Below are positions 2,875 through 61,341 of a DNA stretch of 64,000 bases, piece by piece; the first letter of the stretch is position 1; each line of letters starts with the position of its first letter. The position numbers and the translations under genes are program-made. The stretch is taken from positions 1 to 64,000 of IMG/VR virus record IMGVR_UViG_3300034351_000048; one strand, 5' to 3'. The stretch comes from a virus. The notes beneath the pieces are model-generated. The model worked only from the letters and a program-made list of their open reading frames with translations. It had not been told where the DNA came from and did no database searches.

Positions 2875-3828
2875 ATGAAAAAATTAAATAATTTAAAAAA
2901 AGAATTAGAAGAAAATAATTTTGGGGTTGTATTATCAAACGGTGTTATGACAATAACACATAATGCTTATGATGTTACATATAATGAATATGAAAATTTT
3001 GTTGTAGAGAAACTACGACAATTTACACTAACAAATGATGAGAGATGTGTTGGAAACAGTAATATCCATTACAGCACTCAATTTGGTGGAAGTTGGAAAT
3101 TTTATAGTCACTATGTTACGGATGGCTGGTTAAAAGTCGTTTTTGCCGAAACTAACAAAGACGATGAAAAAATAATTTTCTTATACAAGAACATTAAAAA
3201 TATTGAAATTGAAAATATCCTAAAAAAGGAAGAAAAAGAACGACAGAGAAAAAAAGAAGAAAAACTACGAGAAAAAGAAGAACAACAAAAGAACTATAAA
3301 AAGCTGTCATTCTCAAACGAAAACGAAATTGAAATTTTTTTCAAAAACCTTGTAGAAAAAATAAATGGAACCCAATTCGATTATATTGGGTTTAACATGG
3401 GTAAATTAGAAGAAACTTTTCAAATTTTGTTTATAAAAGAAGATTTAATCGTAATTGAAAAATTATGGGAAAAAAATTATAATAATATTTGGAAATATAC
3501 CAACATTAAAAAATATTGGGATGAGTCAATCTCATTTTCGGAAATGAGGAACTTTGACAATTACTCATACACCTGTCATAACCACAAAGATAGATGTAAT
3601 CATGCTATTAGGCAGGATCGGCACTACTCTCTCTTAATGAAAAACGGCAAGGCTGTTAAATCCAATAACCATGGCGGTAAAATAGACTGGCAGAGCTATG
3701 TAAAAAAGCATAGTAACAACGCCATAGTAATAACAAAGGATGAATGGGATTTTGACGATGCCCCAATCTCCTCTTATATGGAAATGCATCTTTATTATAA
3801 AGGCAAAATCATTAGAACTGTCTTATAA
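2875..3828 (+). CDS. Two-domain hypothetical protein with charged linker (317 aa)
   Basis: The start follows AGAGGTAAG. The N-terminal part (residues about 1-115) is followed by a highly charged Glu/Lys/Arg segment of about 30 residues (about 118-147), probably a helix or coiled coil. The C-terminal domain has a Cys/His cluster (CHNHKDRCNHAIRQDRH, near residues 238-254) that could bind a metal. The last third of the gene and the following 150 bases use more C than neighbouring genes, which could reflect separate origin. It has its own promoter and leader copy at 2788-2874. No family recognised. Confidence 0.8.
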   Translation: MKKLNNLKKELEENNFGVVLSNGVMTITHNAYDVTYNEYENFVVEKLRQFTLTNDERCVGNSNIHYSTQFGGSWKFYSHYVTDGWLKVVFAETNKDDEKIIFLYKNIKNIEIENILKKEEKERQRKKEEKLREKEEQQKNYKKLSFSNENEIEIFFKNLVEKINGTQFDYIGFNMGKLEETFQILFIKEDLIVIEKLWEKNYNNIWKYTNIKKYWDESISFSEMRNFDNYSYTCHNHKDRCNHAIRQDRHYSLLMKNGKAVKSNNHGGKIDWQSYVKKHSNNAIVITKDEWDFDDAPISSYMEMHLYYKGKIIRTVL

Positions 3829-5029: not shown

Positions 5030-5353
5030 ATGAAGGGTAAAGAATATGTCATGATAGATAATAAAAAATATTATTATGATTATATTATATTTGATTACAG
5101 GGATTTAATCGAAAACCCACCAATTGATAATTTGTATAACATTCATTTCTATAGATACATACCTATGTTTTTACGTATATATCGCACGAATCCAAGAAAT
5201 GAAGCTTATGTAGTAGGGTTTTCTATAAAAATAAGTAATGAGAATCTTTGTAAATATATAAATTATCGTAAAAAAGATTATAAAAAGTATGTTATAAATT
5301 ACATAAATAAACACTATAAAAATGAACTAAAAATAAATTGTCGTGATATGTGA
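5030..5353 (+). CDS. Tyrosine-rich hypothetical protein (107 aa)
   Basis: AAGGAGGG lies just before the ATG. The product is unusually rich in Tyr, Asn and Lys and has no membrane segment. Its final codons overlap the left arm of dispersed hairpin copy 3. No family recognised. Confidence 0.7.
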   Translation: MKGKEYVMIDNKKYYYDYIIFDYRDLIENPPIDNLYNIHFYRYIPMFLRIYRTNPRNEAYVVGFSIKISNENLCKYINYRKKDYKKYVINYINKHYKNELKINCRDM

Positions 5354-5369
5354 ATATTATCACTACAAA
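5338..5369 (+). repeat. Dispersed intergenic hairpin, copy 3
   Basis: TTGTCGTGATA (5338-5348) and TATCACTACAA (5358-5368) form an 11-base inverted repeat with one mismatch. The right arm runs straight into the GGAGG of the next gene, so folding could affect its translation. Confidence 0.6.
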
Positions 5370-6523: not shown

Positions 6524-6787
6524 CTATTCTATATAATGATCATATACAGTAATATACCCATTCGGTACAATCAATCCATTATAATAATCAAAGTTTTCAC
6601 ATATATCATCAAACATATCCGCAAGTTTATTTAAATCTTCTAATGTATTTAATTCTATCCAAATTGAAGTGTTATTAGTAGTATTTTCGGGATCATAAGA
6701 TGTTTTAAATACATGTTTTAATATTTTATTATATCCAGTTAAGGCTTCCTTTTCATCCCATCTTGAAGAACGTAATTTGTAAATCAT
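6524..6787 (-). CDS. Small hypothetical protein (87 aa)
   Basis: The start is preceded on the minus strand by AGGAGAG. The product is acidic in its second half and has no recognised motif. It is the last gene of the minus-strand cluster transcribed from 8494-8522 and converges with the plus-strand cluster. Confidence 0.7.
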   Translation of the reverse strand: MIYKLRSSRWDEKEALTGYNKILKHVFKTSYDPENTTNNTSIWIELNTLEDLNKLADMFDDICENFDYYNGLIVPNGYITVYDHYIE

Positions 6788-6837
6788 TCTATCTCTCCTA
6801 TTTTAACATTACAAAGCTATTAATTTCTTTATTTAAA

Positions 6838-6927
6838 TTATTTAATTTTTTTAGTAGGTATCGTGTATATAACTATAGCTATTATACTAGCAATAATACA
6901 AAACCCCAAAATATATAGTGATATCAT
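6838..6927 (-). CDS. Single-span membrane peptide (29 aa)
   Basis: A near-perfect AGGAGGTGAT site lies directly before this ATG. The peptide MISLYILGFCIIASIIAI continues to a short Lys-rich tail, which is one transmembrane helix with an inside-positive end. The strong binding site is the main reason to call it. It could be a membrane-active or regulatory peptide, but nothing more can be said. Confidence 0.6.
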   Translation of the reverse strand: MISLYILGFCIIASIIAIVIYTIPTKKIK

Positions 6928-6936
6928 AATCACCTC

Positions 6937-7305
6937 CTAATTCGATTTGAAATGATGTTTACATTCAGGAATATCAATATTTTTATATTCATTTGTCTTT
7001 ATAAATTCACTTTCAAAATTCAAATTATCTTTATAAATATATAATTCTATATTCTCACCTTGAAAGTTATGGCCTGCTAAACAGGGTATAACAGGCTCTT
7101 TCAAACTTGGTTGTTCTGGAGCTAACATACATATGAAAAAAGCAACCGCTATAAAACAAAAAATAACGCCTATAACCATTATAAAATCTAACCAATCGGG
7201 TATGTGCTTACCTATTCCACATAATATAGATGGAAGACCTAAACATAAAAATATTACCACACAACACCCTAAAAACCCAAATAAATATATTAAATTACTA
7301 CTCAT
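6937..7305 (-). CDS. Membrane protein with two helices (122 aa)
   Basis: Residues about 5-28 and 40-62 are hydrophobic helices. They are followed by a polar C-terminal domain of about 55 residues containing three Cys/His pairs near the end (CLAGHNF, CKHHF). The gene lies between the single-span peptide and the gene at 7315. It is part of the minus-strand early operon. No family recognised. Confidence 0.7.
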   Translation of the reverse strand: MSSNLIYLFGFLGCCVVIFLCLGLPSILCGIGKHIPDWLDFIMVIGVIFCFIAVAFFICMLAPEQPSLKEPVIPCLAGHNFQGENIELYIYKDNLNFESEFIKTNEYKNIDIPECKHHFKSN

Positions 7306-7314
7306 AGAACCTCC

Positions 7315-7770
7315 TTATACAAACCATTCAGGCTTTTTTGTTTTCCAAGATACCATGTATCTCTTTTCATTCATATATAAATCTCTATAAGCTGTTACAA
7401 CATCCTTGTGTTTATGTTGTTCAGTAGTAACATTGGCAAAAGGTGTTAATCCTATTGGTAAATCAGGTGGAGTTAATGTTAAACACATATTGTAGGCTTT
7501 GTGGTTATAGCCATGATTAAATCTTTTTCTATACTCATTGTTAAGATGTTTTGTAAGCTCTCTAAGATACAACCAATTTGTTTTACTTTCATTACACCAC
7601 TTAACAACAGGGTGATATTCATGTGTCATTTTATACCCACAATCCAGGCCGTTTAATCGGCACACAGTAGACAATATCTGTGTATATTCTGTAATCATTT
7701 TTATTACATGTTTATCGCAATGGTAAGAAGCATTAGTTTTTGGATCTAAGTCTAAAATAAATATGTTCAT
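7315..7770 (-). CDS. Conserved phage protein with HCDKHVIKM motif
   Basis: The sequence begins MNIFILDLDP and has the HCDKHVIKMITEYTQILSTV segment, a HPVVKWCNES segment and a C-terminal KKPEWF. I recognise this pattern from a widespread phage protein family of about 150-200 residues. Members have sometimes been linked to pyrimidine-dimer glycosylases, but I cannot show a catalytic site here and do not assert that activity. It is transcribed with neighbouring small genes from the 8494-8522 promoter. Confidence 0.65.
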   Translation of the reverse strand: MNIFILDLDPKTNASYHCDKHVIKMITEYTQILSTVCRLNGLDCGYKMTHEYHPVVKWCNESKTNWLYLRELTKHLNNEYRKRFNHGYNHKAYNMCLTLTPPDLPIGLTPFANVTTEQHKHKDVVTAYRDLYMNEKRYMVSWKTKKPEWFV

Positions 7771-7779
7771 ATAAACCCC

Positions 7780-8112
7780 CTAAAATAAATTCAATTGATC
7801 TTGTAAGTTCATTGGTAAATATTTAAGGAATTCGTTATCTAAGATCAATCTTATATCCTTTTCAAGCTGTTTCAATTCAGGTTCGTTAATGTCCCATTCC
7901 TCATACTCACATTCTATTAACGATTCGATTGTTTTTTCTAAATTAGAATCAGTTTCTAATATCAGTTCATAATACCATGAATGATGATAGTTTATATTAA
8001 ATTCATCTTCAATCAAATAATTTAATTGTGTTTCTATATGATTTTTGAATGTTTTGTAATTATCGTATAGTTCTAAAGTTATTTTTGTTAATTGTTTGTC
8101 TAAGCTATTCAT
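7780..8112 (-). CDS. Acidic hypothetical protein (110 aa)
   Basis: I chose the ATG at 8112 because AGGAG lies six bases upstream; the in-frame ATG at 8118 abuts the binding site. The product is strongly acidic, Leu- and Glu-rich, and probably helical. Acidic small phage proteins sometimes act as inhibitors of host DNA-binding enzymes, but no specific match is seen. Confidence 0.7.
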   Translation of the reverse strand: MNSLDKQLTKITLELYDNYKTFKNHIETQLNYLIEDEFNINYHHSWYYELILETDSNLEKTIESLIECEYEEWDINEPELKQLEKDIRLILDNEFLKYLPMNLQDQLNLF

Positions 8113-8122
8113 AATCATCTCC

Positions 8123-8413
8123 TTATTTTACCCATTCTGTTTTTATTAATTTTTTATAAATATCTATTAATTCTCTTACTCTGTTATTCCATCCAATATA
8201 ATTAGTAACATAACAAACCCGTTTTTCACTATATTCCATATTTTTTATTTCTTCTTTTATTTTTTCAAATATTTCATAAGAACTTCCATGCATATCATGG
8301 CTTTCGTAATATTTCAAATCAATATTACGTTTCATATAATGTTCATACAACATATCTTCTAATGTATGAATCATCCATTCTTTTTCATTTGCATATAAAC
8401 TTAAATTATACAT
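8123..8413 (-). CDS. Hypothetical protein (96 aa)
   Basis: AAAGGAG precedes the ATG. The product is helical and charged, with no recognised motif. It is the first gene after the minus-strand promoter at 8494-8522, with a GC-rich hairpin in its leader at 8442-8466. Confidence 0.7.
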   Translation of the reverse strand: MYNLSLYANEKEWMIHTLEDMLYEHYMKRNIDLKYYESHDMHGSSYEIFEKIKEEIKNMEYSEKRVCYVTNYIGWNNRVRELIDIYKKLIKTEWVK

Positions 8414-8441
8414 ATAAAATCTCCTTTTTTATAATAATATA

Positions 8442-8466
8442 GGGTGATGTTTGATCTCCACCACCC
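8442..8466 (-). promoter_or_regulatory. GC-rich leader hairpin
   Basis: On the minus strand GGGTGGTG and CATCACCC pair over eight positions (one G-U) around a nine-base loop. It lies between the promoter and the binding site of the gene at 8413. It has no T tract, so it is not a standard terminator. Confidence 0.5.
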
Positions 8467-8493
8467 CGATCTATGTTAATGCTTATATTAACA

Positions 8494-8522
8494 ATAATAA
8501 TCATTTTATTATAAAAAGTCAA
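8494..8522 (-). promoter_or_regulatory. Promoter for the minus-strand cluster 8413-6524
   Basis: On the minus strand TTGACT (8522-8517) and TATTAT (8499-8494) are 17 bases apart, with the T-rich spacer shared by other strong promoters here. Confidence 0.7.
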
Positions 8523-8534
8523 CAAATTTTAAAT

Positions 8535-8565
8535 AAAAAAATAGGAGTATAAAATAATATACTCC
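8535..8565 (-). terminator. Rho-independent terminator of the AntA-like gene
   Basis: On the minus strand an 8-bp perfect stem GGAGTATA/TATACTCC (8565-8558 with 8551-8544) is followed by TATTTTTTTA. It lies about 100 bases after the stop of the antirepressor gene. Confidence 0.75.
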
Positions 8566-8666
8566 CGAAATGTTTTTTCTGAGGTAAAGCAAAGCAATGA
8601 ATTCAAAGAATTCCATATTAAAATAATAAAATTTGTGGAATTTACAAATATTTAAGGTAAGAATTT

Positions 8667-9467
8667 TTAATTTTCAATCAATTTTAAGTATTGGTTTTTG
8701 TCTTTTTCACACATACACTTAATGTAATCATCACTTTCTATTTCTTTTGGTTTATCTTGACCTACCAATGCACCGAGTTTTTCCATAATAGCTTTTATAT
8801 TTTGGTAAATTTCTTTATAAGGAATACCCTCATCTATTTGTTTAATCATTTCTTTCATTGAGGTGCTTTCAGCAACTGTAATCTTAGCTAATTGAACATA
8901 ATCACAACAATCCCTAAGATTTTTATTGATTTTGTTTAGAGAATCTACACGAAATAAAGCTTTATTTATCATTTTTGTGATTAACATAAAGTATTTATCC
9001 GCGTGTTTACTTCCATTTTCTTCCGCATATTTCTGAAAAGCACGTATTCCATCTGTTAATTCATGCCTTTGTAGTTTCCCTTTTGTTCTTGCGTCAATCC
9101 ATTCTTGGTTATGATGATTTTCTTGTATATTTCGTAATTGTTTATCACGTTCAATAAAATATTTTCTTATACATCTTGCTAAATTATTATTTTCAGTCAT
9201 ACCAAGTTCTTTTGCCATATCAATAGATACATGATATTCTTTTTCAGGGCGGCCTTTAGATTTAACGTCATTTTTGACGATAATTATATAGTCTTCTTGT
9301 TCAATAAACCCATAATCCTTGATTCTCCTTTGTATCCATTTAGAGAATTCAGTTTTTATTTCTAAATATTCCCATAAATCCCTTGAATTTACAGTGTCTA
9401 TTTGTAATTTTTTGTTGTTTTCGATTTTTACTAAAGATTCAAACTCTTCTTTTTTAAATTGTTTCAT
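8667..9467 (-). CDS. AntA/AntB-type antirepressor
   Basis: The N-terminal 110 residues match the AntA/AntB antirepressor domain: VNSRDLWEYLEIKTEFSKWI, then GFIEQEDYIIIVKND, GRPEKEYHVSIDMAKELGMT and ARCIRKYFIERDKQ. The C-terminal 150 residues are helical, with a conserved-looking NKALFRVDSLNKINKNLRD shared with the paralogue at 59365-60198. Antirepressors of this family inactivate phage repressors or otherwise switch gene programmes. The gene has its own promoter (9598-9626), a structured RNA leader whose switch strand can mask the GAGGA binding site, and a terminator (8535-8565), so it forms a single-gene unit. The regulatory target is not visible in this window. Confidence 0.85.
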   Translation of the reverse strand: MKQFKKEEFESLVKIENNKKLQIDTVNSRDLWEYLEIKTEFSKWIQRRIKDYGFIEQEDYIIIVKNDVKSKGRPEKEYHVSIDMAKELGMTENNNLARCIRKYFIERDKQLRNIQENHHNQEWIDARTKGKLQRHELTDGIRAFQKYAEENGSKHADKYFMLITKMINKALFRVDSLNKINKNLRDCCDYVQLAKITVAESTSMKEMIKQIDEGIPYKEIYQNIKAIMEKLGALVGQDKPKEIESDDYIKCMCEKDKNQYLKLIEN

Positions 9468-9591
9468 AGTGTGAGTTCCTCACCATATTAAAATATCATT
9501 CACAAAGTGAACGTAGGCACATATTCCAATATGGTGAGTTTAAATGAGTGCCCATTTAGCCTAAAACCACCAATATTTTTATATGAACCTA
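9468..9591 (-). promoter_or_regulatory. Structured RNA leader A (c4-like switch) of the AntA-like gene
   Basis: On the minus-strand RNA, stem I pairs 9577-9564 with 9541-9528. The 3' strand of stem I, CTCACCATATT (9538-9528), is also perfectly complementary to AATATGGTGAG (9489-9479), which runs into the GAGGA binding site. The loop contains GCCTA-pairable TAGGC (9563-9559) and, alternatively, GGCAC (9552-9548), both able to pair with GTGCCTA (9520-9514). Hairpin II is TTCAC-TTT-GTGAA (9511-9499), followed by TGATATTTT. The same layout occurs at 17869, 53139 and 55544. Its transcription start is predicted near 9591. Confidence 0.8.
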
Positions 9592-9597
9592 CTATAT

Positions 9598-9626
9598 AAT
9601 ATACAAAATTTATCCAACAAAGTCAA
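9598..9626 (-). promoter_or_regulatory. Promoter of the AntA-like gene and its leader
   Basis: On the minus strand TTGACT (9626-9621) and TATATT (9603-9598) are exactly 17 bases apart. The predicted start lies just before stem I of leader A. Confidence 0.75.
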
Positions 9627-9708
9627 ATTTTAGAATTCAAACTCTATCAATACTGAAAAGATTTTATAAAAATTATAAAAAATTATTTAAATTTATTTTA
9701 CAAAAGTG

Positions 9709-9737
9709 TTGACTTTTTATAATTATATTAGTATATT
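9709..9737 (+). promoter_or_regulatory. Strong promoter, duplicate of the one at 2788
   Basis: TTGACT at 9709-9714 and TATATT at 9732-9737 are 17 bases apart. The downstream leader (ATGTAAGGCTTAA, AAGTTTTACAA, AGAGGTAAAG) closely repeats the leader at 2817-2874. It is divergent from the promoter at 9598-9626. Confidence 0.75.
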
Positions 9738-9797
9738 ATTATATGTAAGGCTTAAAAAAGTTTTACAAAAAAATTAAAAAAAAGAGAGGTAAAGAAA

Positions 9798-10103
9798 ATG
9801 GAAACAAAAAAAATTACAAAAAAAGTAAGAAGATCAATCAAAGAAAAGATATTAAACACTATCGAACAACATGAAAAAAGGTCAAAAAGTTATTTCTGGA
9901 AACCCAACACCAACGCTGGTGGAAGAAGATCAATAGAAAATAAATTTAAAATTGACCATCCTTCTTATTCCTTTACACATCAAGGGATAAAATATGAAAT
10001 AATTACAAGTTTAGATGTATCATGTAAGAATTATTACTATTCTTTGTCTGTATATGTAGATGCAGAAAAGAAAAATATTAAAACATTAAAAAAACTTATA
10101 TGA
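9798..10103 (+). CDS. Basic hypothetical protein (101 aa)
   Basis: AGAGGTAAAG lies just upstream. The first 50 residues are strongly Lys/Arg-rich (KKITKKVRRSIKEK), and the C-terminal half alternates Tyr and Ser in a probable beta-rich domain. It is the first gene after the duplicated promoter module and may bind nucleic acid, which is inferred from charge only. Confidence 0.7.
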   Translation: METKKITKKVRRSIKEKILNTIEQHEKRSKSYFWKPNTNAGGRRSIENKFKIDHPSYSFTHQGIKYEIITSLDVSCKNYYYSLSVYVDAEKKNIKTLKKLI

Positions 10104-10113
10104 CAAAATAAGG

Positions 10114-10139
10114 TTTTCGGTAATCCTTAAAACCGAAAA
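10114..10139 (+). promoter_or_regulatory. Intergenic hairpin between 9798 and 10164 genes
   Basis: TTTTCGGT (10114-10121) and ACCGAAAA (10132-10139) form a perfect 8-bp stem with a 10-base loop. No T tract follows, so it may be an attenuator, a processing site or an mRNA-stabilising hairpin. Confidence 0.5.
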
Positions 10140-10163
10140 TAACCATAAATGGAGGAGATTTTT

Positions 10164-10364
10164 ATGGAAACAAAAACAAATGCAGAGCAAATCTGTAAAA
10201 GTTTTGTAGCTATAGCTGCAAACTATTCAAGAGAGCTAAGAATTTTAGAAAAAGATTACAAAAGCTTCCTAAATTATATTCTAAAGGAAGCTGACAAGCT
10301 ACCTGAAAGAGTAAAAGCAAAAATTATAAGCAAAATAAAAAAATTGGAGGGAATAGATGAATGA
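10164..10364 (+). CDS. Small helical hypothetical protein (66 aa)
   Basis: The ATG at 10164 follows GGAGGAG; the in-frame ATG at 10149 lies on that site. The product is helical with regular charged residues (SRELRILEKDYKSFLNYILK). It overlaps the next gene by eight bases (GATGAATGA), so coupling is likely. Confidence 0.7.
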   Translation: METKTNAEQICKSFVAIAANYSRELRILEKDYKSFLNYILKEADKLPERVKAKIISKIKKLEGIDE

Positions 10365-10527
10365 TTATTTTAATATCAGAAAAATCAATAAATTACAATG
10401 TAAAAACTGCCTATATTTCAATAAATACAAATGTGATAAAGGGATTAATATAAACAAACAAATATGTAAATTTAATATATTCTTTAAATCTGAAAAAATA
10501 AAAAAGGAGACAACTTATGTTAAATAA
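10357..10527 (+). CDS. Small cysteine-cluster protein (56 aa)
   Basis: TTGGAGGG precedes the ATG at 10357, which overlaps the previous stop. The protein has LQCKNCLYFNKYKCDKG and then QICKFNIFF, matching the C-x2-C-x-[YF] ... C ... C-x-F module of five other genes here. It is the most compact version and has little besides the module. A metal-binding role is inferred. Its end overlaps the next gene by 11 bases. Confidence 0.7.
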   Translation: MNDYFNIRKINKLQCKNCLYFNKYKCDKGININKQICKFNIFFKSEKIKKETTYVK

Positions 10528-10897
10528 GGAAGTTAAAGAGAGAAAATACAATATACATGAGTATGAAAACTATACAGAAAAAGAAGCTATACTTGAAAAA
10601 ATACATATGTATAGGTTAGCAAAAACGCCTGAATGGGAAATAAGAGAAAGGCTTATAGATAAAATTTCTAAAGAGTATATATACTTATTACCAACACAAG
10701 AAAGACCCGTATTAGATAAAATTGAAAGGGTTGAATATAAAACATCAGACGATCCTTTTGATCACAGTTATGGATACTATTATAAAGCCTATTTTAAAAA
10801 TAGTGAAATTGTTGCGGAATTCGGTGAAAGTGATATTGATGATGTATTAAAGGATTATTCAGGTATAATAACTGAGAAAGACATTAGAAAAGCTTAG
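10517..10897 (+). CDS. Acidic hypothetical protein (126 aa)
   Basis: AAGGAG lies eight bases before the ATG and inside the previous gene. The product is charged, with a Tyr-rich middle (HSYGYYYKAYF) and an acidic end. It converges with, and overlaps by 14 bases, the minus-strand gene at 10884. No family recognised. Confidence 0.7.
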   Translation: MLNKEVKERKYNIHEYENYTEKEAILEKIHMYRLAKTPEWEIRERLIDKISKEYIYLLPTQERPVLDKIERVEYKTSDDPFDHSYGYYYKAYFKNSEIVAEFGESDIDDVLKDYSGIITEKDIRKA

Positions 10898-11120
10898 ATT
10901 TAATTTGTTCAAGCAATTCTTTGTAATTACTTTCCAACTCTTCCAAAGAATCAAAATCATAATTTTCTTTATTATCCTCAATTATAACAGTTATATAAAA
11001 ATAAGGATTATGCTTACAATTTAAGATATCTCTCCAAGGTTTTTCATTAAAATCCATATAAATTTCCCATACCTTATTATCAGGTAGATTTATTATCTCA
11101 TTTTTAATTTTTATTATCAT
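10884..11120 (-). CDS. Small hypothetical protein (78 aa)
   Basis: I chose the ATG at 11120 because GGAGG lies nine bases upstream on the minus strand; a longer frame from 11168 would overlap the neighbour more. The product contains Trp-rich segments (KVWEIYMDFNEKPWRD) and an acidic helical end. It is last in the minus-strand operon that begins at 16931. Confidence 0.65.
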   Translation of the reverse strand: MIIKIKNEIINLPDNKVWEIYMDFNEKPWRDILNCKHNPYFYITVIIEDNKENYDFDSLEELESNYKELLEQIKSKLF

Positions 11121-11286
11121 CTTTTCCTCCATTTTTATCTTTAAAATCGTCACAAATATGGCTTTCATCTACACGAATTTTATATTTTTTACATTCGTTA
11201 TATGAAAGTTTTTGTGAGTCTATTTCTTTACATTTAACACATTCTAAACAAGAGATTACTTCTCTAAAATTAGGTGCTTGTTTCAT
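11104..11286 (-). CDS. Small cysteine-cluster protein (60 aa)
   Basis: The protein begins MKQAPNFREVISCLECVKC and later has ECKKYKI and HICDDFKD. The NFRE-x5-C-x2-C start and ICDDF end align with the proteins at 4039 and 13081. One extra Cys lies after the first pair. It overlaps the kinase-like gene by four bases, so the two may be translated together. The role is unknown. Confidence 0.7.
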   Translation of the reverse strand: MKQAPNFREVISCLECVKCKEIDSQKLSYNECKKYKIRVDESHICDDFKDKNGGKDDNKN

Positions 11287-11900
11287 AGATTTTCCTCTTT
11301 AATTATAATTTTATTTATAACTTTTTTCACATTAGCTGTCAATTCCCTTACTGTAAGTTGTTTTTCATTGTTATACGGTTTTACATAATGAACAGAATTA
11401 TTTTTCAATTTACCATAATAGTATTTTATGGCATATAGATAAGCTTTATTCAGTTTCTTTAAATCTAAAGAAGATATATTCCAAGATTCATGGTTTCTTT
11501 TCATTAAGTTTTCATAACAATATTCTGATGTATTAGTTATATATATTGTATCGAATTTATCATAATTGCATCTTTCTTCATAATCAATACATTCAAAATT
11601 GAATATTCTATCTTTATTATTAAAACAATTTTTAGTAAAATAAGCATAGTTACTTAATATATATCTATCCGCTATAACATGTTTTTTATTAAGTATTCTT
11701 AATAAGATATCATTATAATCATATCTATCATGTGCATAATTTTCATATGTGTAATATCCTTTATTGGCTTTATCTTTATCTAAAAACACTGGATATTTAA
11801 CAAAATCAAATTTGTTATCATCTAATTCTTTTTGTAAAATATTATATACGGATGATTTACCACATCCATTAATGCCTTCTAACACTATAAGTTTTTTCAA
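11283..11900 (-). CDS. Deoxynucleotide (dTMP-type) kinase
   Basis: This protein probably phosphorylates a deoxynucleoside monophosphate or deoxynucleoside for phage DNA synthesis. Residues 8-17 form a P-loop (EGINGCGKSS), and HVIADRYILSNYAY near residue 75-88 matches the DRY segment of thymidylate kinases. At 205 residues it has the usual family length. The start codon is TTG at 11900, six bases after AAGGAGG. It lies downstream of the sliding clamp gene, separated by a terminator at 11918-11952. Substrate choice between dTMP and another nucleotide cannot be decided from sequence alone. Confidence 0.75.
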   Translation of the reverse strand: MKKLIVLEGINGCGKSSVYNILQKELDDNKFDFVKYPVFLDKDKANKGYYTYENYAHDRYDYNDILLRILNKKHVIADRYILSNYAYFTKNCFNNKDRIFNFECIDYEERCNYDKFDTIYITNTSEYCYENLMKRNHESWNISSLDLKKLNKAYLYAIKYYYGKLKNNSVHYVKPYNNEKQLTVRELTANVKKVINKIIIKEENL

Positions 11901-11917
11901 ATAAGCCTCCTTATAAA

Positions 11918-11952
11918 TAAAAATAAGCAGTATATAATATCTATATACTGCT
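11918..11952 (-). terminator. Rho-independent terminator after the sliding clamp gene
   Basis: On the minus strand an 11-bp perfect stem AGCAGTATATA/TATATACTGCT (11952-11942 with 11936-11926) is followed by TATTTTTATTT. It lies 23 bases after the stop of the clamp gene. Some read-through to the kinase gene is likely, because no promoter is evident there. Confidence 0.75.
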
Positions 11953-11974
11953 CTATAGATTAAAAAATAAAAAA

Positions 11975-13084
11975 TTAAGTGTTTTGTGTTCTCATTAAAG
12001 CAATCAAATGTATATTTTGGAAAGTTTCTTTATTATACAATTCAACCGCAAGATTGTTACTAAACAACAATGTTATTTGATCTGATTCTATAGTAGAGAT
12101 ACCATTCATTAAAAAATCTACATTAATACTAAATTCGGCATTATTTAAAGATTTGTTTATTTTTATCGGGTCTGATTTGAATTCGCCTTTGTTATTTTTA
12201 GCATGTATTATAAGACTGTCTGAAATAGATATTCTAATAGGAGATATATTGTTTCCGTTTTTACTAAACACCTTAGCTTTTTTTAGTTCTTTTAGAATTT
12301 CTGCTTTATTTATTTGTATTTCATTTTCAAATTTTTCAGGTAAAATTCTTTGGTAGTTAATAAAATTACCTTCTATCAAATTACTTATTAGTTCTACTTC
12401 CTCTGATACTCTAAATTTTATAAAGTTTTCTAATATTACAATTTCTATAGTTTTAGAATTAAATTTTAATAGTTCAGGAACTATCCTTTTTGGAACTGTT
12501 ATTCTGAATTCTAAATCGCCGTATTTTTCATCAATGTTTATTTCATATTTGGAAAGAACCTTACCAGAAGTAGCTACAATTGTAATGTAATCAGTCTTTT
12601 TCATTTTCTCTAAACATATACCATTTAAATCAAACCTCATTTCATCTTTACATATAGCATCTTTAACAAATTTAATAGCATTAATCAGCTCATTTGTATC
12701 TATTTCAAACTTTAAAGTTTCTTCCAAATCGTTTAGGATGTAGATTTCATCTTTGTTTTCTTCAATTACCTGAACTACAAATTGATCTTTGTTGATATAC
12801 ATTAGATTTTTATTTACATTTAAATTAACAGTTGAATCTTTGTCTAAACTATTCAAGATATCAAGTAAAAGAGTAGGATCAATAGAGAATATCAAGTCTT
12901 TTTCTTCTTTTATTTCATCTAAGAATAGTAAAACATACTGTTCATTGTTCCTAAAGAATACTTTCAAGGTGTTTTTTTCAACAAAAAACAAAAACTTATG
13001 AAAATGACTTGTATTTTTATCTATTAAATTTCTATACTTACTTAATTTTTCATATAAAAATTCTACATTTGTAGTAAAATTCAT
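11975..13084 (-). CDS. dnaN: DNA polymerase III beta subunit (sliding clamp)
   Basis: The protein is 369 residues, matching bacterial beta clamps with three repeated domains of about 120 residues. Clamp-like segments include FSIDPTLLLDILNSLDKDS in domain 1, LNGICLEKM plus ATSGKVLSKYEI in domain 2, and FSINVDFLMNGISTIESDQI and a C-terminal LIALMRTQ (compare the MPMR end of DnaN) in domain 3. It would encircle DNA and tether a polymerase. No polymerase or clamp loader is present in this window, so it may serve host Pol III or a phage enzyme encoded elsewhere. Its start overlaps the upstream gene by four bases. Confidence 0.8.
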   Translation of the reverse strand: MNFTTNVEFLYEKLSKYRNLIDKNTSHFHKFLFFVEKNTLKVFFRNNEQYVLLFLDEIKEEKDLIFSIDPTLLLDILNSLDKDSTVNLNVNKNLMYINKDQFVVQVIEENKDEIYILNDLEETLKFEIDTNELINAIKFVKDAICKDEMRFDLNGICLEKMKKTDYITIVATSGKVLSKYEINIDEKYGDLEFRITVPKRIVPELLKFNSKTIEIVILENFIKFRVSEEVELISNLIEGNFINYQRILPEKFENEIQINKAEILKELKKAKVFSKNGNNISPIRISISDSLIIHAKNNKGEFKSDPIKINKSLNNAEFSINVDFLMNGISTIESDQITLLFSNNLAVELYNKETFQNIHLIALMRTQNT

Positions 13085-13482
13085 TTATTTTCCTCCTCAA
13101 AATCATCGCATATTAAATATTCGTTTATTCCAACTCCATATTTCTCACACTTTTCATAATCCCCTGCCCCCATAATAGGTGTAAAATCATAATATTTACA
13201 TTTAGTACATGTAGTAGCCTCTCTCAAATTTGGGGGGCCTATTTTCTCTAAATATTTGATAGGAACAATCCAGCTGTTTTCTTTTAATTTAACTTCAGTG
13301 TATATTCTATCAGGTATAATATTACTTTCCACAGTATAAGTTGCGGTTACAATTTTATTACTTAGCTCATTTACAAAGCAAGCAAAAGTTTTTATATCTG
13401 TAGTATCGTCCCCGTTGCATAATTTAAACATTGTTTCTATATCTTTGAATTTTACCTTATCACCTTTTTTAAATTTACTCAT
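13081..13482 (-). CDS. Two-domain protein with a C-terminal cysteine module
   Basis: Residues 1-80 begin FKKGDKVKFKD and resemble a small SH3- or KOW-like barrel, which is inferred. Residues about 82-133 reproduce the cysteine module of the 4039 protein: NLREATTCTKCKYY, EKCEKY and INEYLICDDFEEENK. The near identity across opposite strands shows recent duplication or recombination of the module. GGAGG precedes the ATG. It overlaps the clamp gene by four bases. Confidence 0.75.
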   Translation of the reverse strand: MSKFKKGDKVKFKDIETMFKLCNGDDTTDIKTFACFVNELSNKIVTATYTVESNIIPDRIYTEVKLKENSWIVPIKYLEKIGPPNLREATTCTKCKYYDFTPIMGAGDYEKCEKYGVGINEYLICDDFEEENK

Positions 13483-14448: not shown

Positions 14449-14468
14449 TACCTATTTCTCCTTTATTT

Positions 14469-14500
14469 TTTGTAGTGATAATCTTTTGTTAGCACGACGA
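14469..14500 (-). repeat. Dispersed intergenic hairpin, copy 4
   Basis: The plus-strand TTTGTAGTGATAAT (14469-14482) is the reverse of the shared ATTATCACTACAAA core, so the element has the same sense as its genes. The partner TTAGCACGACG (14489-14499) pairs imperfectly (about 8 of 11). It lies between the 14489 and 14448 genes. Confidence 0.5.
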
Positions 14501-14917
14501 TTTATTTAAAAACACTTCTATAAAAGCTTCAGCCTTTATATTATCATCTATTTTCTTTTGTTTTCGATTATCCCTATACTTAACAGTTTCTTCATAGATT
14601 ATTGGTTCTAACTCTTCCATTATAGATATAAACTTTATCATATACTTTTCATAATCTGTTTCATGAATATTATTTAATATTATTTCTTCAATATCAAAAT
14701 CTTTGCTAAATATTTTTTGTCTTACTTTCACATCAATACTTTTCAGAAAACCTAATTTGAAACGTATAATTGTAACATATAAATCATCAATATAATGCGA
14801 ATTTATATATTTGAAACTATAATAGTTGTGTTTATATATGCTTTTTAGAATTATCATCAAACAAAATATATTTTTATATTTTATCTTTAGTTCATCTAAT
14901 ACCAATTTTTTATTCAT
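14489..14917 (-). CDS. Hypothetical protein (142 aa)
   Basis: I prefer the ATG at 14917, which has GAGGA eight bases upstream, over the ATG at 14932, which has none. The product is helical and basic, ending in a Lys-rich segment and CysSer. No family is recognised. It is adjacent to dispersed hairpin copy 4, which overlaps its stop. Confidence 0.7.
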   Translation of the reverse strand: MNKKLVLDELKIKYKNIFCLMIILKSIYKHNYYSFKYINSHYIDDLYVTIIRFKLGFLKSIDVKVRQKIFSKDFDIEEIILNNIHETDYEKYMIKFISIMEELEPIIYEETVKYRDNRKQKKIDDNIKAEAFIEVFLNKSSC

Positions 14918-15486: not shown

Positions 15487-15509
15487 AGTTTCACCTCTAT
15501 TTTATTTTT

Positions 15510-15542
15510 TTTGTAGTGATAATACATGCTTATTATGACGAT
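15510..15542 (-). repeat. Dispersed intergenic hairpin, copy 6
   Basis: TTTGTAGTGATAATA (15510-15524) is an exact reverse of the shared core, and TATTATGACGA (15531-15541) is its imperfect partner. It shares ACATGCTT with copy 5. It lies between two minus-strand genes. Confidence 0.5.
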
Positions 15543-15809
15543 TTATTTATCAGCTATCACAGTAATAATTATATTATGTAAATCATTCCTTATATTGCCA
15601 TAAGAGTCTGATATAAGATGTTTTTTTAAATCATTTATATTATCATATTCTCCATAGACATCATATCGAAAATTTCCATTTATATCTTTATATTCATAAA
15701 TATTTGTTTTTGAATCGTATTGACAATTACATATTATATAATGTTCTTTACCTTCAATATCAAAATCTTGATAATAAAAATAAAGTTTTTTTGATTTTTT
15801 ATCATCCAT
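15543..15809 (-). CDS. Tyrosine-rich hypothetical protein (88 aa)
   Basis: AAGGAG precedes the ATG. The product is rich in Tyr, Asp and Asn, probably beta-structured, with no membrane segment or motif. It is part of the run of small unknown genes 16931-14041. Confidence 0.7.
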   Translation of the reverse strand: MDDKKSKKLYFYYQDFDIEGKEHYIICNCQYDSKTNIYEYKDINGNFRYDVYGEYDNINDLKKHLISDSYGNIRNDLHNIIITVIADK

Positions 15810-16973: not shown

Positions 16974-17002
16974 AATATACTAATATAATTATAAAAAGTC
17001 AA
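16974..17002 (-). promoter_or_regulatory. Promoter of the 16931-10884 operon
   Basis: On the minus strand TTGACT (17002-16997) and TATATT (16979-16974) are 17 bases apart, with the same T-rich spacer (TTTTATAATTATATTAG) seen at 9709. This is one of the strongest promoter matches in the window. Confidence 0.75.
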
Positions 17003-17118
17003 CACTTTTGTAAAATATTTTTAAAATAAATTTGAATTTTTTATTTAATGTTTTGTGTGTTTGCTTATTAGAAAAGTAAAATGGGTGGAATTAGAAAAAT
17101 TAAAAAAGAAATTTTATG

Positions 17119-17868
17119 TTATTTTTTGTATTCTTTGGCTACTTTCTTTCGTATATATTCAAACCCTTTTTTAGTAACTAAAGTTACGGGTTTATTTCCA
17201 ACTTCTTTAATCATTTTCTCTTTAACTTTGAAATATCCAAGTTCAATATAAGGTTGTTTAGGAACATTTGAACCATTCAGCATAAACAATATCTCTTCTT
17301 CTCTTAAGAACTTGAATAATCTTACAACTCCAATATCAATGCCTTTACTACTTAACAACTTTGCAACTTCATTCATAGTCATTAAATTTTCATCATTCAT
17401 AAAATCGTCGTAAGAATTTGCTTTTGGTAAAAGAACTTGTTTCTCAGCTTCTAATTTTTCATTTTCAAGTGCTAATCTTCCAGCTTCTAAGAGGGCTTCG
17501 GCATAGGATTGTGGAATGTTATATTGTTTTTCTTGTATTTCTTTTAATTTAAAATAACTTTTAACAAGTTTATTATACACATCCCATGCTTCGGATGTAC
17601 CAATACTTTTAGCGTGTTTCAAAGCTCCTGATTCTGTCCATAAGTATATAGGTCTTTGAGAATTCTCACTATTCGAAAATTTCGAATATTCTTTATTGGA
17701 CTTAGAAATAAGTATATAATCGATGTTTTCAGTATATTGATTTTTATTATTATTGAAATTTTGTTGGATTTTTATTGGTTTAACACCATAAAATTCTGCT
17801 AATTCTTTAGTTGTTAAGACTATTTTTTCTTTATATTGTTTTTGATTTAATTTTGTTAGGTCTGTCAT
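17119..17868 (-). CDS. ORF6N-KilAC antirepressor-type regulator
   Basis: Residues about 13-110 form an ORF6N domain (LTTKELAEFYGVKPIKIQQNF and LWTESGALKHAKSIGTSEA). A short coiled segment with LALENEKLEAEKQ follows. Residues about 148-245 match the KilAC/phage antirepressor C-terminal domain (MTMNEVAKLLSSKGIDIG, LFKFLREEEIL, QPYIELGYFKVKE, VTKKGFEYIRKK). The first 115 residues are nearly identical to the protein at 52368-53138, which carries a different C-terminal domain. It has its own promoter (18000-18027) and structured leader B. It probably binds DNA or a repressor and alters phage gene expression. No terminator is obvious in 17003-17118. Confidence 0.85.
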   Translation of the reverse strand: MTDLTKLNQKQYKEKIVLTTKELAEFYGVKPIKIQQNFNNNKNQYTENIDYILISKSNKEYSKFSNSENSQRPIYLWTESGALKHAKSIGTSEAWDVYNKLVKSYFKLKEIQEKQYNIPQSYAEALLEAGRLALENEKLEAEKQVLLPKANSYDDFMNDENLMTMNEVAKLLSSKGIDIGVVRLFKFLREEEILFMLNGSNVPKQPYIELGYFKVKEKMIKEVGNKPVTLVTKKGFEYIRKKVAKEYKK

Positions 17869-17993
17869 AATTAGACTCCATCAACTATAAAAAACGCTCA
17901 TTCACCAAAGGTAAACGTAACCACAGCATTTAAATATAGTTAATGGATCAAAGAGGGTGGTTATTTCTCTTAAATCCATTAAAATAACTATAC
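17869..17993 (-). promoter_or_regulatory. Structured RNA leader B (c4-like switch) of the ORF6N-KilAC gene
   Basis: On the minus-strand RNA, stem I pairs 17992-17967 with 17955-17935 in three blocks (including AATGGAT with ATCCATT). Its 3' strand TCCATTAACTATA (17947-17935) can instead pair over 13 positions (one G-U) with TATAGTTGATGGA (17889-17877), which ends in the GGAG binding site. Loop bases TAACCAC (17963-17957) pair perfectly with GTGGTTA (17924-17918). Hairpin II is TTTACC-TTT-GGTGAA (17915-17901), followed by TGA. The predicted transcript starts at the base of stem I. Confidence 0.85.
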
Positions 17994-51994: not shown

Positions 51995-52368
51995 TATTTA
52001 TTCTCCTTATTTGAAATCTTTTCCATAAAATTTTCTAATACACTTTTACATATAAATAACATATCGTTTTGTGTATAAAAATCTTCGTAAAATTTGATTT
52101 TTATTTTTCTTATTTCGACAAATTTAGATAAATTCTCATCTTCATAAATATTTTCTATAATTTCAAAATGTGAATCATTTATATCTATAAATCCATGACT
52201 GAATATGATTTCATATGATTTCTCATTTTCATAAAAATATTCTAAATATAAATATTGAGCTTTATCAGAAAAAGACATATCTCTTTCTATCTTAATATTT
52301 GGGTTATATTTATATATTATATTTCTGAATTCATTTTTTGTCTTATGTATAAAATCTAAATTATCCAT
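51994..52368 (-). CDS. Hypothetical protein (124 aa)
   Basis: The start overlaps the stop of the preceding minus-strand regulator by one base. The product is charged and aromatic, with no motif. It is cotranscribed with the ORF6N-ORF6C gene and the pentapeptide-like gene. Confidence 0.7.
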   Translation of the reverse strand: MDNLDFIHKTKNEFRNIIYKYNPNIKIERDMSFSDKAQYLYLEYFYENEKSYEIIFSHGFIDINDSHFEIIENIYEDENLSKFVEIRKIKIKFYEDFYTQNDMLFICKSVLENFMEKISNKENK

Positions 52369-53138
52369 TATCGATTCTCCTTACCGAATAATTCAGAAGC
52401 TAAATCATACAAATCTTTTAATTTACCATTTTGATCTATAATATCTAATTTTGTTAATTTACCTGTTTCTTTTTGTTTTCTTTCTCTTGCGTATACATCA
52501 AAATGATATCTATACTTGAACTGTAAATATAACTTTTTCCAAGTATCATGCATACTCAAATATTTAGTTTGAGCGTATGTTCTAACAATAAGATTAATTT
52601 TTGATCTTGTAGTTAATTCATTTGCATTGTCATGAGAAAGGGGTAATTCATTAAAAGTATTCTCGTTTTCTTCCTGAACTTGTTTTATAGAATTTACATC
52701 TTCTTGTAATTTTAGCATGTTTTCTTCATGTTCAACTAATTTATTTACACAAGCTTGTAAAGCATATATATTAGACAAATCAGGCCTTTCTATTTGTTTT
52801 TCTTGTATTTCTTTTAATTTAAAGTAACTTTTAACAAGTTTATTATAAACATCCCATGCCTCAGGAGTCCCAATACTTTTAGCGTGTTTTAAGGCTCCTG
52901 ATTCTGTCCATAGATATATAGGGCGTTTTCCATTTTTGTTATCTTGAAATTCACGATAACTATTATCACTAAATGATATAATCAAATAATCAATATTTTC
53001 AATATATTTCTCATTGTTTCTATTAAAATTGTAACTTATAATTTTTGTATCAACACCATAAAATTCTGCTAATTCTTTAGTTGTTAATACAATAGTGTCA
53101 TTATATTGTTTTTGATTTAATTTTGAAATGTCGGTCAT
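52368..53138 (-). CDS. ORF6N-ORF6C antirepressor-type regulator
   Basis: I chose the ATG at 53138 (MTDISKLNQKQYND) because it matches the start of the 17119 protein and follows AGGAG. Residues about 13-110 are an ORF6N domain (LTTKELAEFYGVDTKIIS, YLWTESGALKHAKSIG). A coiled segment follows, and residues about 178-250 match ORF6C (SKINLIVRTYAQTKYLS, WKKLYLQFKYRYHFDVYA). The N-terminal 115 residues are nearly identical to the 17119 protein, so the two differ mainly by C-terminal domain swap. Structured leader C precedes it. Confidence 0.85.
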   Translation of the reverse strand: MTDISKLNQKQYNDTIVLTTKELAEFYGVDTKIISYNFNRNNEKYIENIDYLIISFSDNSYREFQDNKNGKRPIYLWTESGALKHAKSIGTPEAWDVYNKLVKSYFKLKEIQEKQIERPDLSNIYALQACVNKLVEHEENMLKLQEDVNSIKQVQEENENTFNELPLSHDNANELTTRSKINLIVRTYAQTKYLSMHDTWKKLYLQFKYRYHFDVYARERKQKETGKLTKLDIIDQNGKLKDLYDLASELFGKENR

Positions 53139-53250
53139 GTTAAGACTCCTATTAAATAAAATATCATTCATTATAAAATGAAAGGGGATAAAAATTTCAT
53201 TTAATAGGATTAGAGAATTATCCCGGTTTCCTAATCCTATTAAAAATCTA
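53139..53250 (-). promoter_or_regulatory. Structured RNA leader C (c4-like switch) of the ORF6N-ORF6C gene
   Basis: On the minus-strand RNA, stem I pairs 53244-53231 with 53213-53200 (14 bp, perfect). The 3' strand TCCTATTAAAT (53209-53199) is also a perfect 11-bp match for ATTTAATAGGA (53157-53147), which forms most of the AGGAG binding site. Loop GGGATAA (53224-53218) pairs perfectly with TTATCCC (53191-53185). Hairpin II is AATGAA with TTCATT (53182-53167), followed by TGATATTTT. Confidence 0.85.
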
Positions 53251-53503: not shown

Positions 53504-53532
53504 AATATACTAAATTAGATTAAAACAGTCAA
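53504..53532 (-). promoter_or_regulatory. Promoter of tRNA-Leu and probably the ORF6N-ORF6C gene
   Basis: On the minus strand TTGACT (53532-53527) and TATATT (53509-53504) are 17 bases apart. No other clear promoter lies between the tRNA and leader C, so one transcript may hold tRNA, leader and regulator. Confidence 0.7.
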
Positions 53533-53557
53533 ATTTATTTTAAATAAAATTTAAAAG

Positions 53558-53586
53558 TTGACTTTTTATAATCATTTTAGTATATT
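53558..53586 (+). promoter_or_regulatory. Promoter of the replication-side cluster
   Basis: TTGACT at 53558-53563 and TATATT at 53581-53586 are 17 bases apart, divergent from 53504-53532. It serves the nuclease gene at 53606. Confidence 0.75.
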
Positions 53587-53605
53587 TAAATTGTGGAGGT
53601 GAAAT

Positions 53606-55543: not shown

Positions 55544-55666
55544 GTATAAACTAAAAATTAACCAGATTAAGATATATACCGACTTTCTTAATCTTGTTAG
55601 TTTATATGTTGTCGGTACATCCACCTTTGGTGGGTGAACATATTTTCTAACAAGGTGATAAAAACC
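55544..55666 (+). promoter_or_regulatory. Structured RNA leader D (c4-like switch) of the ORF6N-nuclease gene
   Basis: Stem I pairs AAACTAA (55548-55554) with TTAGTTT (55597-55603) and GATTAAG (55565-55571) with CTTAATC (55587-55593). Part of its 3' strand, ATCTTGTTAG, can instead pair with CTAACAAGGT (55647-55656), which is most of the AAGGTGAT binding site. Loop TACCGAC (55577-55583) pairs perfectly with GTCGGTA (55611-55617). Hairpin II is CCACC-TTT-GGTGG (55621-55633), followed by GTGAACATATTTT. It is the plus-strand member of the four-element set. Confidence 0.85.
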
Positions 55667-56350
55667 ATGTCAAATTTAATAAAAATAACAAATAACATCT
55701 CAATTGAAGAAATACTCTACAAAGGACAAAGAGTATTAACTTCAAAGCAACTTGCCGAAATTTACAATTGTAATGAAAGGCAAATCCGTCAAAACTTTAA
55801 TAATAATAAGGATAAATTTATTGAAGGTAAACATTATGTTAAGCTTATTGGAGAAGATTTAAAAGAATTTAAGAAAGATATTAAAACAAAAAATTTAGTA
55901 AATAAATACACACCTGAATTAAATTTATTCACTTTGAAAGGTTGCTTATTACAAAGTAACTTCATTACATCTATCAATGATAAAAATTTACAGTCTATTT
56001 ATAAATATTTTGGGGTTGAAAATAATCTTACAATAGGTAATTCTATTCAAAGAACAGAGTATTATTATTTAGATGAACTTAGAAAGGCTTTCGATGGAAT
56101 ATTTGATATAACTTCACAATTGACTATAGGAATGTATAGAATAGATTATTACATACAGAAATACAATATAGCAATAGAATGTGATGAAAACAATCATAAC
56201 GATAGAGATAGAGACTATGAAATACAAAGAGAAAAGTTTATAAAAAAAGAATTAGGTTGTAAAATTATACGATTTGATCCTAAATTTATATCTATTGGAG
56301 AATTAATAAATAAAATCTTATGTGCTATAAAGGAGATGGATAATGAATAG
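55667..56350 (+). CDS. ORF6N regulator fused to a nuclease-like domain
   Basis: The ATG at 55667 follows AAGGTGAT; an upstream GTG at 55634 lies inside leader D. Residues about 10-100 are an ORF6N domain (LTSKQLAEIYNCNERQIRQNF, FIEGKHYVKL). Residues about 135-225 (YRIDYYIQKYNIAIECDENN, CKIIRFDPKF) fit a small PD-(D/E)xK or Vsr-like fold with Asp160, Glu171 and Asp173. The combination of an antirepressor-type DNA-binding domain with a nuclease domain is notable. It overlaps the next ORF6N gene by eight bases. Confidence 0.75.
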   Translation: MSNLIKITNNISIEEILYKGQRVLTSKQLAEIYNCNERQIRQNFNNNKDKFIEGKHYVKLIGEDLKEFKKDIKTKNLVNKYTPELNLFTLKGCLLQSNFITSINDKNLQSIYKYFGVENNLTIGNSIQRTEYYYLDELRKAFDGIFDITSQLTIGMYRIDYYIQKYNIAIECDENNHNDRDRDYEIQREKFIKKELGCKIIRFDPKFISIGELINKILCAIKEMDNE

Positions 56351-59320: not shown

Positions 59321-59348
59321 TACCCTCCTTTATTGGAGGGGTATTTTA
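59321..59348 (+). promoter_or_regulatory. Hairpin before the second AntA-like gene
   Basis: TACCCTCC and GGAGGGGTA (59321-59343) pair over eight positions with one bulged G, followed by TTTT. It could be a terminator after the helicase or hairpin II of a degenerate leader element. Confidence 0.5.
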
Positions 59349-59364
59349 ACAAAGAGGAAATAAG

Positions 59365-60198
59365 ATGAGAGAATTTAATAGAAATGAGTTTGAATCTTTA
59401 GTAAAAATCCAAAACAATAATAAGTTACAAATAGATACTATAAATGCCCGTGATCTATGGGAATATTTGGAAGTGGATACTCGATTTAACGATTGGATAA
59501 AGAATCGTATTTATAAATATCAATTTGTTGAATCACACGATTATATATGCCTTACTAAAAAAAAAGAAACGCGTAGAAATGACGGTCAAAAAGGCTCTGC
59601 AGTCATTACTGAATACCATATTTCTATTAATATGGCAAAAGAGTTGTCTATGGTAGAAAACAGTAATCTTGGTAGGGCAGTAAGATTATATTATATAGAA
59701 TTAGAAAAAGAATTAAAAGAAATTAGAAATAATGATGATAGACAAACGGCTTTATGGGAAACAATAAGAGTAGAATCTAAAATAGAAAGAAAAGATTTTA
59801 CTGATTCTATACAATCTTTAGTAAATTATGCAATTGATATGGGTGCGAGTGATGGCGTTAAATGGTATTATAAGCACATTACAAGTGCTTTAAACAAAGC
59901 TCTTTTTAGAATAGAATCTTTACAAAAAGTTCATAAAAACCTAAGGGATGAAATAAGTTATATTCAATTAAGTCATATTATCACATTAGAAACTATCCTT
60001 AGAAATAGAATATTAGAAATGGTAAATATGGGGTTTGAATATAAGACAATATATGAGAATTTAAAGGAATTATGTATACAACAAGGAAAACTTATAGGCA
60101 AAGAAAAACCACGATATATTACAGAAAAAGAATACAAATCATGTATGAATAAAAAGGAATTAAAATTATATAGCAAAGATCAAAATTTATTATTTTAG
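59365..60198 (+). CDS. AntA/AntB-type antirepressor 2
   Basis: The first 110 residues match AntA (INARDLWEYLEVDTRFNDWI, QFVESHDYICL, TEYHISINMAKELSMVENS, GRAVRLYYIELEKEL). The C-terminal part is helical with NKALFRIESLQKVHKNLRDE, shared with the 8667 paralogue. AGAGGA precedes the ATG. The two paralogues lie at opposite ends of the window and on opposite strands. Target unknown. Confidence 0.85.
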   Translation: MREFNRNEFESLVKIQNNNKLQIDTINARDLWEYLEVDTRFNDWIKNRIYKYQFVESHDYICLTKKKETRRNDGQKGSAVITEYHISINMAKELSMVENSNLGRAVRLYYIELEKELKEIRNNDDRQTALWETIRVESKIERKDFTDSIQSLVNYAIDMGASDGVKWYYKHITSALNKALFRIESLQKVHKNLRDEISYIQLSHIITLETILRNRILEMVNMGFEYKTIYENLKELCIQQGKLIGKEKPRYITEKEYKSCMNKKELKLYSKDQNLLF

Positions 60199-61305: not shown

Positions 61306-61341
61306 TAATATATCCTTACTAAATTATAAAAAGAGGTTTTT

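Follow-up and report, generated by a model that had tools for sequence, protein, structure and literature searches.

A pseudoknot leader upstream of an AntA-type antirepressor gene, one of five of a common plan in a phage record, as a candidate cis-acting translational switch

To characterize leader A, the non-coding segment upstream of an AntA-type antirepressor gene, we analyzed the stretch of 64,000 nucleotides (hereafter, the window) that constitutes positions 1 to 64,000 of the IMG/VR virus record IMGVR_UViG_3300034351_000048. The genes around leader A, all on the minus strand (6524-13482), include a pyrimidine-dimer glycosylase-like gene (7315-7770), a deoxynucleoside kinase-like gene (11283-11900) and a phage sliding clamp gene (11975-13084). 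Two types of repeat are also seen in the window. A promoter-like repeat, TTGACTTTTTATAATnATnTTAGTATATTTAA, is found at several divergent gene starts (2762-2865, 9683-9786, 16974-17042, 53531-53589 and 61250-61308), and a repeat of about 40 nt, TTTGTAGTGATAAT...GACGATTTATTT, is found in three places (14466-14508, 15507-15549 and, inverted, 5331-5369).

Across the 80-kb phage record, we found five leaders of one plan, termed A to E, each located 5' of an antirepressor-type gene (one AntA, three ORF6N and one Rha). The features of leader A and the positions of the other four leaders are listed in Table 1. The DUF559 domain of the protein encoded behind leader D is restriction-endonuclease-like, which makes for an unusual antirepressor-like fusion, and the gene is overlapped by a further ORF6N gene at 56343, presumably on the same transcript. 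A second AntA gene (59365-60198), which shares 45% identity with the one behind leader A, has no such leader upstream; a terminator-like hairpin, ACCCTCCTTTATTGGAGGGGT-ATTTT, is instead located immediately 5' of its ribosome-binding site (RBS; 59322-59364, plus strand). Leader E is preceded by a tRNA-like element of 122 nt (L003:976-1097, about 73403-73524 of the record) that ends some 3 nt before the leader. This element scores 38.6 bits with the Rfam tRNA model, is not called by ARAGORN and contains a long insertion in the region of the anticodon arm. Its processing could set the 5' end of leader E.

Table 1 Features of leader A and positions of the related leaders. Positions refer to the window unless stated otherwise.
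Feature	Position	Strand	Remarks
AntA-type antirepressor gene, behind leader A	8667-9467	-	Pfam AntA, E 2.5e-24
a2, AAUAUGGUGAG, ribosome-binding strand, leader A	9479-9489	-	partner of a' (P2a)
b2, AUAUUUU, leader A	9490-9496	-	partner of b'
Hairpin P3, GUUCAC-UUU-GUGAAU, then G(A), leader A	9498-9512	-	followed by U-rich stretch; weakly terminator-like
S 3' strand, GUGCCUA, leader A	9514-9520	-	then single C (9513)
Second antisense segment b', GGAAUAU, leader A	9521-9527	-	pairs with 9496-9490; directly 5' of S 3' strand, as in 5/5 leaders
Antisense (switch) strand a', CUCACCAUAUU, leader A	9528-9538	-	exact complement of RBS strand 9489-9479
P1 3' arm, leader A	9533-9545	-	final six bases also belong to antisense strand
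S 5' strand, UGGGCAC, in P1 loop, leader A	9548-9554	-	7/7 paired with 9520-9514
P1 5' arm, GGUGGUUUUAGGC, leader A	9559-9571	-	register common to all five leaders
5' strand UAGGUUCAUAU, may pair with AUAUGUGCCUA to close an outer stem; specific to leader A	9581-9591	-	sets predicted fold balance in A
Promoter-like site TTGACT-17-TATATT, leader A	9598-9626	-	10/12 consensus positions; ~3 promoter-like matches expected by chance per 400 bases scanned
Leader B	17869-17980	-	precedes ORF6N+ANT gene 17119-17868
Leader C	53139-53241	-	precedes ORF6N gene 52368-53138
Leader D	55560-55666	+	precedes ORF6N+DUF559 gene 55667-56350
Leader E	73527-73631 of record, outside window	+	precedes Rha gene
S pairs (5'/3' strand)			A UGGGCAC/GUGCCUA; B UAACCAC/GUGGUUA; C GGGAUAA/UUAUCCC; D UACCGAC/GUCGGUA; E AGAUCGU/ACGAUCU

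A preliminary description of leader A had noted an 11-base strand that is perfectly complementary to the binding site of the AntA gene, and both segments could indeed be located on the minus strand, namely CTCACCATATT at 9538-9528 and its exact complement, AATATGGTGAG, at 9489-9479. The latter overlaps the Shine-Dalgarno motif GAGGA (9481-9477), upstream of the ATG at 9467. The antisense-RBS helix extends inward through GGAATAT/ATATTTT, reaching a total of 18 bp with two G-U pairs included. The antisense strand also has an upstream partner, as the outer part of the P1 5' arm (a1, GGUGGU) mimics the RBS strand GGUGAG. In the same description, this partner in stem I (here P1) was said to be mismatched. 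Mismatches do remain, although the partner was redrawn as the arm at 9571-9559, where 11 of 13 positions are paired, including three G-U pairs; a P1 drawn with AAAUG/CAUUU inside was replaced by this register. The pseudoknot, previously given as 5 bp with two registers, proved to be 7 bp long with one G-U pair when drawn in the register that all five copies have in common. As for the promoter that was said to start the transcript just before the stem, the promoter-like match is present, and the transcript would accordingly begin near 9590-9593. However, this region is AT-rich and such matches are common in it, with about three expected by chance over the 400 bases examined, and the match therefore does not fix the start site.

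All five leaders share a common frame without insertions or deletions, consisting of a P1 5' arm of 13 nt, 4 nt, the S 5' strand of 7 nt, 2 nt and a P1 3' arm of 13 nt. This frame is followed, 9-17 nt 3' of P1, by the S 3' strand, a single C, the hairpin P3 and G(A). While the S sequences are unrelated among the five leaders, S is paired at seven of seven positions in each, with two-sided variation at every pair. P1 is paired at 11-12 of its 13 positions across the leaders, with leader A being the weakest when only Watson-Crick pairs in the common register are counted (8/13, versus 11-12/13 in B-E). S connects the loop of P1 with a strand lying outside this stem, so that the two helices combine into an H-type pseudoknot, whose link to RBS access is suggested by pairing and covariation. 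In each leader, a' begins within the last 5-6 positions of P1 and pairs with the RBS strand a2 over 8-12 bp, while b', just 5' of the S 3' strand, pairs with b2, just 3' of P3, over 5-7 bp. The presence of a 7-bp pseudoknot in every copy, together with an antirepressor logic of the C4 type, goes beyond what had previously been described for this locus.

The shared structure was assessed statistically in several ways. Over the five leaders, 94.6% of the cells in P1, S and P3 pair, a share that falls to 36-47% upon shifting the partner by 1-3 columns. Of the 26 pairs in these three helices, 18 display two-sided changes, compared with 7.5 in shuffles. For the covariation alignment, P3 of leader E was shortened. 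It should be considered that the covariation rests on five paralogous leaders of one virus record, as relatives were not found in the other records scanned. The antisense-RBS match of each leader is beyond chance, with the longest helix within a leader being 12 bp in A, 13 in B, 16 in C, 10 in D and 10 in E, compared with at most 9 bp across leaders. Leaders D and E carry the nearest codes, pairing crosswise over 9 bp, such that cross-talk between these two is conceivable. When a first-pass descriptor was applied to all ATG starts of the window, leaders A-D ranked at the top, with scores of 37, 31, 31 and 27 over a background reaching 24; leader E scored 30. Among 100 shuffled windows, a score of at least 31 was seen in none and of at least 27 in ten, whereas the real window contains three of at least 31. 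A looser descriptor was powerless in AT-rich sequence and was dropped. Finally, a covariance model built from leaders B-E only returned leader A as the best match beyond the training copies (E about 1e-3). At the level of sequence analysis, the anatomy, the five copies, the covariation and the gene context can thus be taken as established, and a one-strand switch, in which stem I and the RBS compete, is well supported as anatomy by the five copies, the strong covariation and the fixed geometry.

The search for relatives took several approaches. Scanning viral contigs by protein and by pattern recovered antirepressor loci, although no leaders of this class, and no member was found among the loci from the DNA-pattern scan, in a genome scan with an ORF6N alignment or in a portal-protein search covering 392 genomes. 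A covariance model run on 46 virus or phage records and seven genomes yielded no member; three weak matches (E 0.02-0.05) were rejected, as none presented the layout. The antirepressor-gene regions of Fusobacterium phage Fnu1, Marinitoga camini virus 1 and Thomasclavelia phage TR-TP2 contain no such leader, and no Rfam family was matched by the window leaders in a scan of the window, in searches with leaders A and B at E values of up to 10 or with the sequence containing leader E.

On balance, we lean towards leader A acting in cis as a translational switch within the antirepressor mRNA, with a logic like that of the C4 and IsrK leaders of other phages. In the closed form, the antisense segments a' and b' would pair with the RBS region of their own gene (P2a and P2b), turning translation off. 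In the open form, a' would pair with the upstream RBS imitation a1 to form P1, the P1 loop would form the pseudoknot S with the strand before P3 and the RBS would be free of P2. The two forms should be exclusive, as P1 and P2a share about six antisense bases and as the S 3' strand sits in the loop closed by P2b. The open form should arise first, since P1, S and P3 are transcribed ahead of the RBS, and the closed form may be reached later, or once some factor (RNA, protein or ligand) opens P1 and S. With such a switch, antirepressor levels would stay low during lysogeny and could surge upon induction. We infer each of these points, namely the prevailing form, the exclusivity, the folding order, the trigger and the biological effect. 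A published precedent is offered by isrK-anrP of Gifsy-1, where cis/trans partner exchange controls an antirepressor-like gene (PMC4825925).

The preliminary description had proposed computing the free energies of both folds, suspecting that leader A is differently tuned and that its binding-site pairing may be more stable than stem I. We performed this calculation with a pseudoknot penalty of +8 kcal/mol, a guessed value, identical for all leaders, on which the energies depend. With this penalty, the pseudoknot form lies above the best nested fold by 7.8 kcal/mol in A, 4.9 in B, 2.3 in C, 1.0 in D and 1.4 in E. These modelled energies suggest just that the two forms are close and that leader A is the least pseudoknot-prone. 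In the nested ensemble of leader A, a' pairs with the RBS with a probability of 0.21 if the predicted transcript retains its first ~11 nt and of 0.99 if it lacks them. As the shift is due to the outer stem UAGGUUCAUAU/AUAUGUGCCUA, whether RBS pairing wins in A hinges on the exact transcription start, and the suspected advantage of this pairing over stem I is seen only for the shorter transcript. Different tuning of leader A is thus partly supported, in that its P1 is the weakest and its pseudoknot is some 8 kcal/mol up, versus 1-5 in B-E, with the balance still depending on those first ~11 nt. In the other leaders, P2a has a probability of 0.03 in the nested ensemble of E, and P1 of C has a probability of 0.05 without S. 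A 'free' RBS is also not assured in the open form of leader A, as the RBS is predicted there to lie inside a small local hairpin, GUGAG-GAA-CUCAC.

Some of the same features can be read differently. One could consider the leader to give rise to an antisense RNA acting in trans, as with C4 of P1/P7, being cut or terminated after P3 to release a piece of ~75-100 nt that binds antirepressor RBSs and confers immunity. We regard this explanation as unlikely, yet as one to be taken seriously, as the gene context and the a1/a'/a2 logic match those of C4 and sRNA-Xcc1, as RNase P cuts C4 out of the ant transcript of P1/P7 (releasing a trans-acting RNA of ~77 nt from the larger transcript; PMC5320573), as P3 with the U-rich stretch that follows resembles a terminator in A and B and as a tRNA-like element is found ~3 nt upstream of leader E. 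Nonetheless, the adjacent a1 holds a' in P1 and should hinder binding in trans, while b' and b2 flank the S 3' strand and P3 exactly, a geometry needed for cis pairing only; moreover, the U-stretch after P3 is interrupted in A. The same hairpin could serve as a transcription attenuator, such that the alternative folds would choose between termination and read-through rather than act on translation. In A and B, P3 and its U-rich stretch score as a terminator-like element, albeit a weak one, against a chance expectation of about 0-0.1. As P3 fits both folds, it would not be switched. Its stem is only 6-7 bp long, the U stretch lies 2-5 nt away and is interrupted in A, no such element is recognisable in E and the antisense strand aims at the RBS, all of which render attenuation very improbable. 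A reading of P3 as a plain terminator was not adopted.

The pseudoknot formed by P1, S and P3 might also be a sensor domain, recognized by a metabolite or by a protein of the phage or host whose binding would shift the switch, in the manner of a riboswitch or an autoregulated leader. P1, L1, S and L2 are of fixed length in five of five divergent leaders, as are the single C that follows S and the G(A) that follows P3, suggesting a defined three-dimensional shape. However, few unpaired positions are strictly conserved, an Rfam riboswitch match is absent and the pseudoknot alone could account for the fixed lengths. A ligand or protein could conceivably read the pseudoknot, although we consider a sensor domain to be quite unlikely as the explanation of the leaders. 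A broader and speculative proposal, which we hold to be rather doubtful, is that the leaders represent a new RNA class in which the fixed-geometry pseudoknot P1-S-P3 senses a signal or times folding and sets antirepressors of several families through five private antisense-RBS codes, with prophage induction being decided at the RNA level by parallel switches. At the other extreme, the leaders could be alike merely through recent copying, with their complementarity being inherited and of no function. In line with such duplication, leaders B-E resemble one another in the sequence of the P1 region, and the ORF6N proteins are paralogs of each other. Yet S differs in five of five leaders while remaining paired at seven of seven positions, antisense and RBS have changed together in each copy and, as the AntA, ORF6N and Rha N-terminal domains represent different families, the leader has been kept across gene types. 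Duplication without function is already disfavoured by the two-sided changes and is, in our estimate, the least probable of these explanations.

Antirepressor control of the C4 type has been described in Proteobacteria and their phages; here, it would be found in a low-GC phage, in five much smaller copies that serve three antirepressor families, each with an antisense-RBS pair of its own. The leaders can be considered compact relatives, in design, of the phage P1 antisense RNA that silences its antirepressor. If a cis-acting translational switch is correct, ~95 nt would suffice to accommodate a closing stem, an antisense strand and an RBS imitation, and the natural set of five could be used directly for studying strand-exchange tuning and code insulation.

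The window leaders should be viewed as C4-type by anatomy and not as members of either of the two related Rfam families, as membership in C4 (RF01695) and in sRNA-Xcc1 (RF02221) was rejected because in both cases the gathering score was not reached and the layout differs. C4 antisense RNA is found in Proteobacteria and their phages (PMC2864571, PMC5320573), and in P1/P7 it blocks the ant mRNA at the RBS (PMC5320573, PMC12197685). With C4 of P1/P7 (targets c4-a1b1, RF03163), the window leaders share the position as leader of an antirepressor gene (with which they are presumably co-transcribed), an antisense segment complementary to both the antirepressor RBS (a2) and an upstream copy (a1), with own-RBS helices of 10-16 bp here, and a closing stem that brackets the antisense segment. 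C4, however, has a long closing stem, two inner hairpins and its antisense segment in a hairpin loop, whereas the window leaders have the 7-bp S and no inner hairpins; also unlike C4, a1 adjoins the closing stem and pairs with a' across it, thus creating the pseudoknot, and b' and b2 bracket P3.

When the descriptor matched 5' of enteric-phage antirepressor genes, the matches corresponded to Rfam C4 antisense RNA, while others corresponded to sRNA-Xcc1. Copies of the latter (L160:1828-1953 and 2919-3048, as well as L171, L165, L170, L187, L188 and L267) are located directly 5' of antirepressor-type or other phage genes. In these phage copies, a pair of segments is complementary to the RBS region and, in several cases, to upstream copies as well, which is the a1b1/a2b2 logic of C4; such complementarity is not described in PMC2996969 or PMC12189769. 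In its 3' half, sRNA-Xcc1 presents the layout closest to that of the window leaders, i.e., a', b', closing strand, hairpin, b2, a2 and start codon, as seen in the phage copies analyzed here and lying outside the Rfam definition, and several have a1/b1 copies upstream. It differs in its 5' half, where the closing stem encloses two hairpins, the second of which contains a', and in its a1/b1 being ~80-104 nt upstream. The comparison suggests that sRNA-Xcc1, described as a trans-acting Xanthomonas RNA, belongs by design with these antirepressor leaders.

Two further systems are related in principle. In isrK-orf45-anrP of Gifsy-1, the antirepressor-like anrP is controlled by two alternative mRNA folds, with a strand of the upstream part competing for the one that governs the downstream RBS, and the isrK part activates anrP translation by partner exchange (PMC4825925). 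This system is, nonetheless, larger and operates via an upstream ORF together with IsrK, a separate, terminated sRNA that acts in trans, and no pseudoknot is described for it (PMC4825925). The sar RNA of phage P22 likewise provides antisense control of ant translation (PMC12197685) but does so as a separate antisense RNA on the ant mRNA, whereas in the window leaders the antisense strand lies inside the mRNA leader itself.
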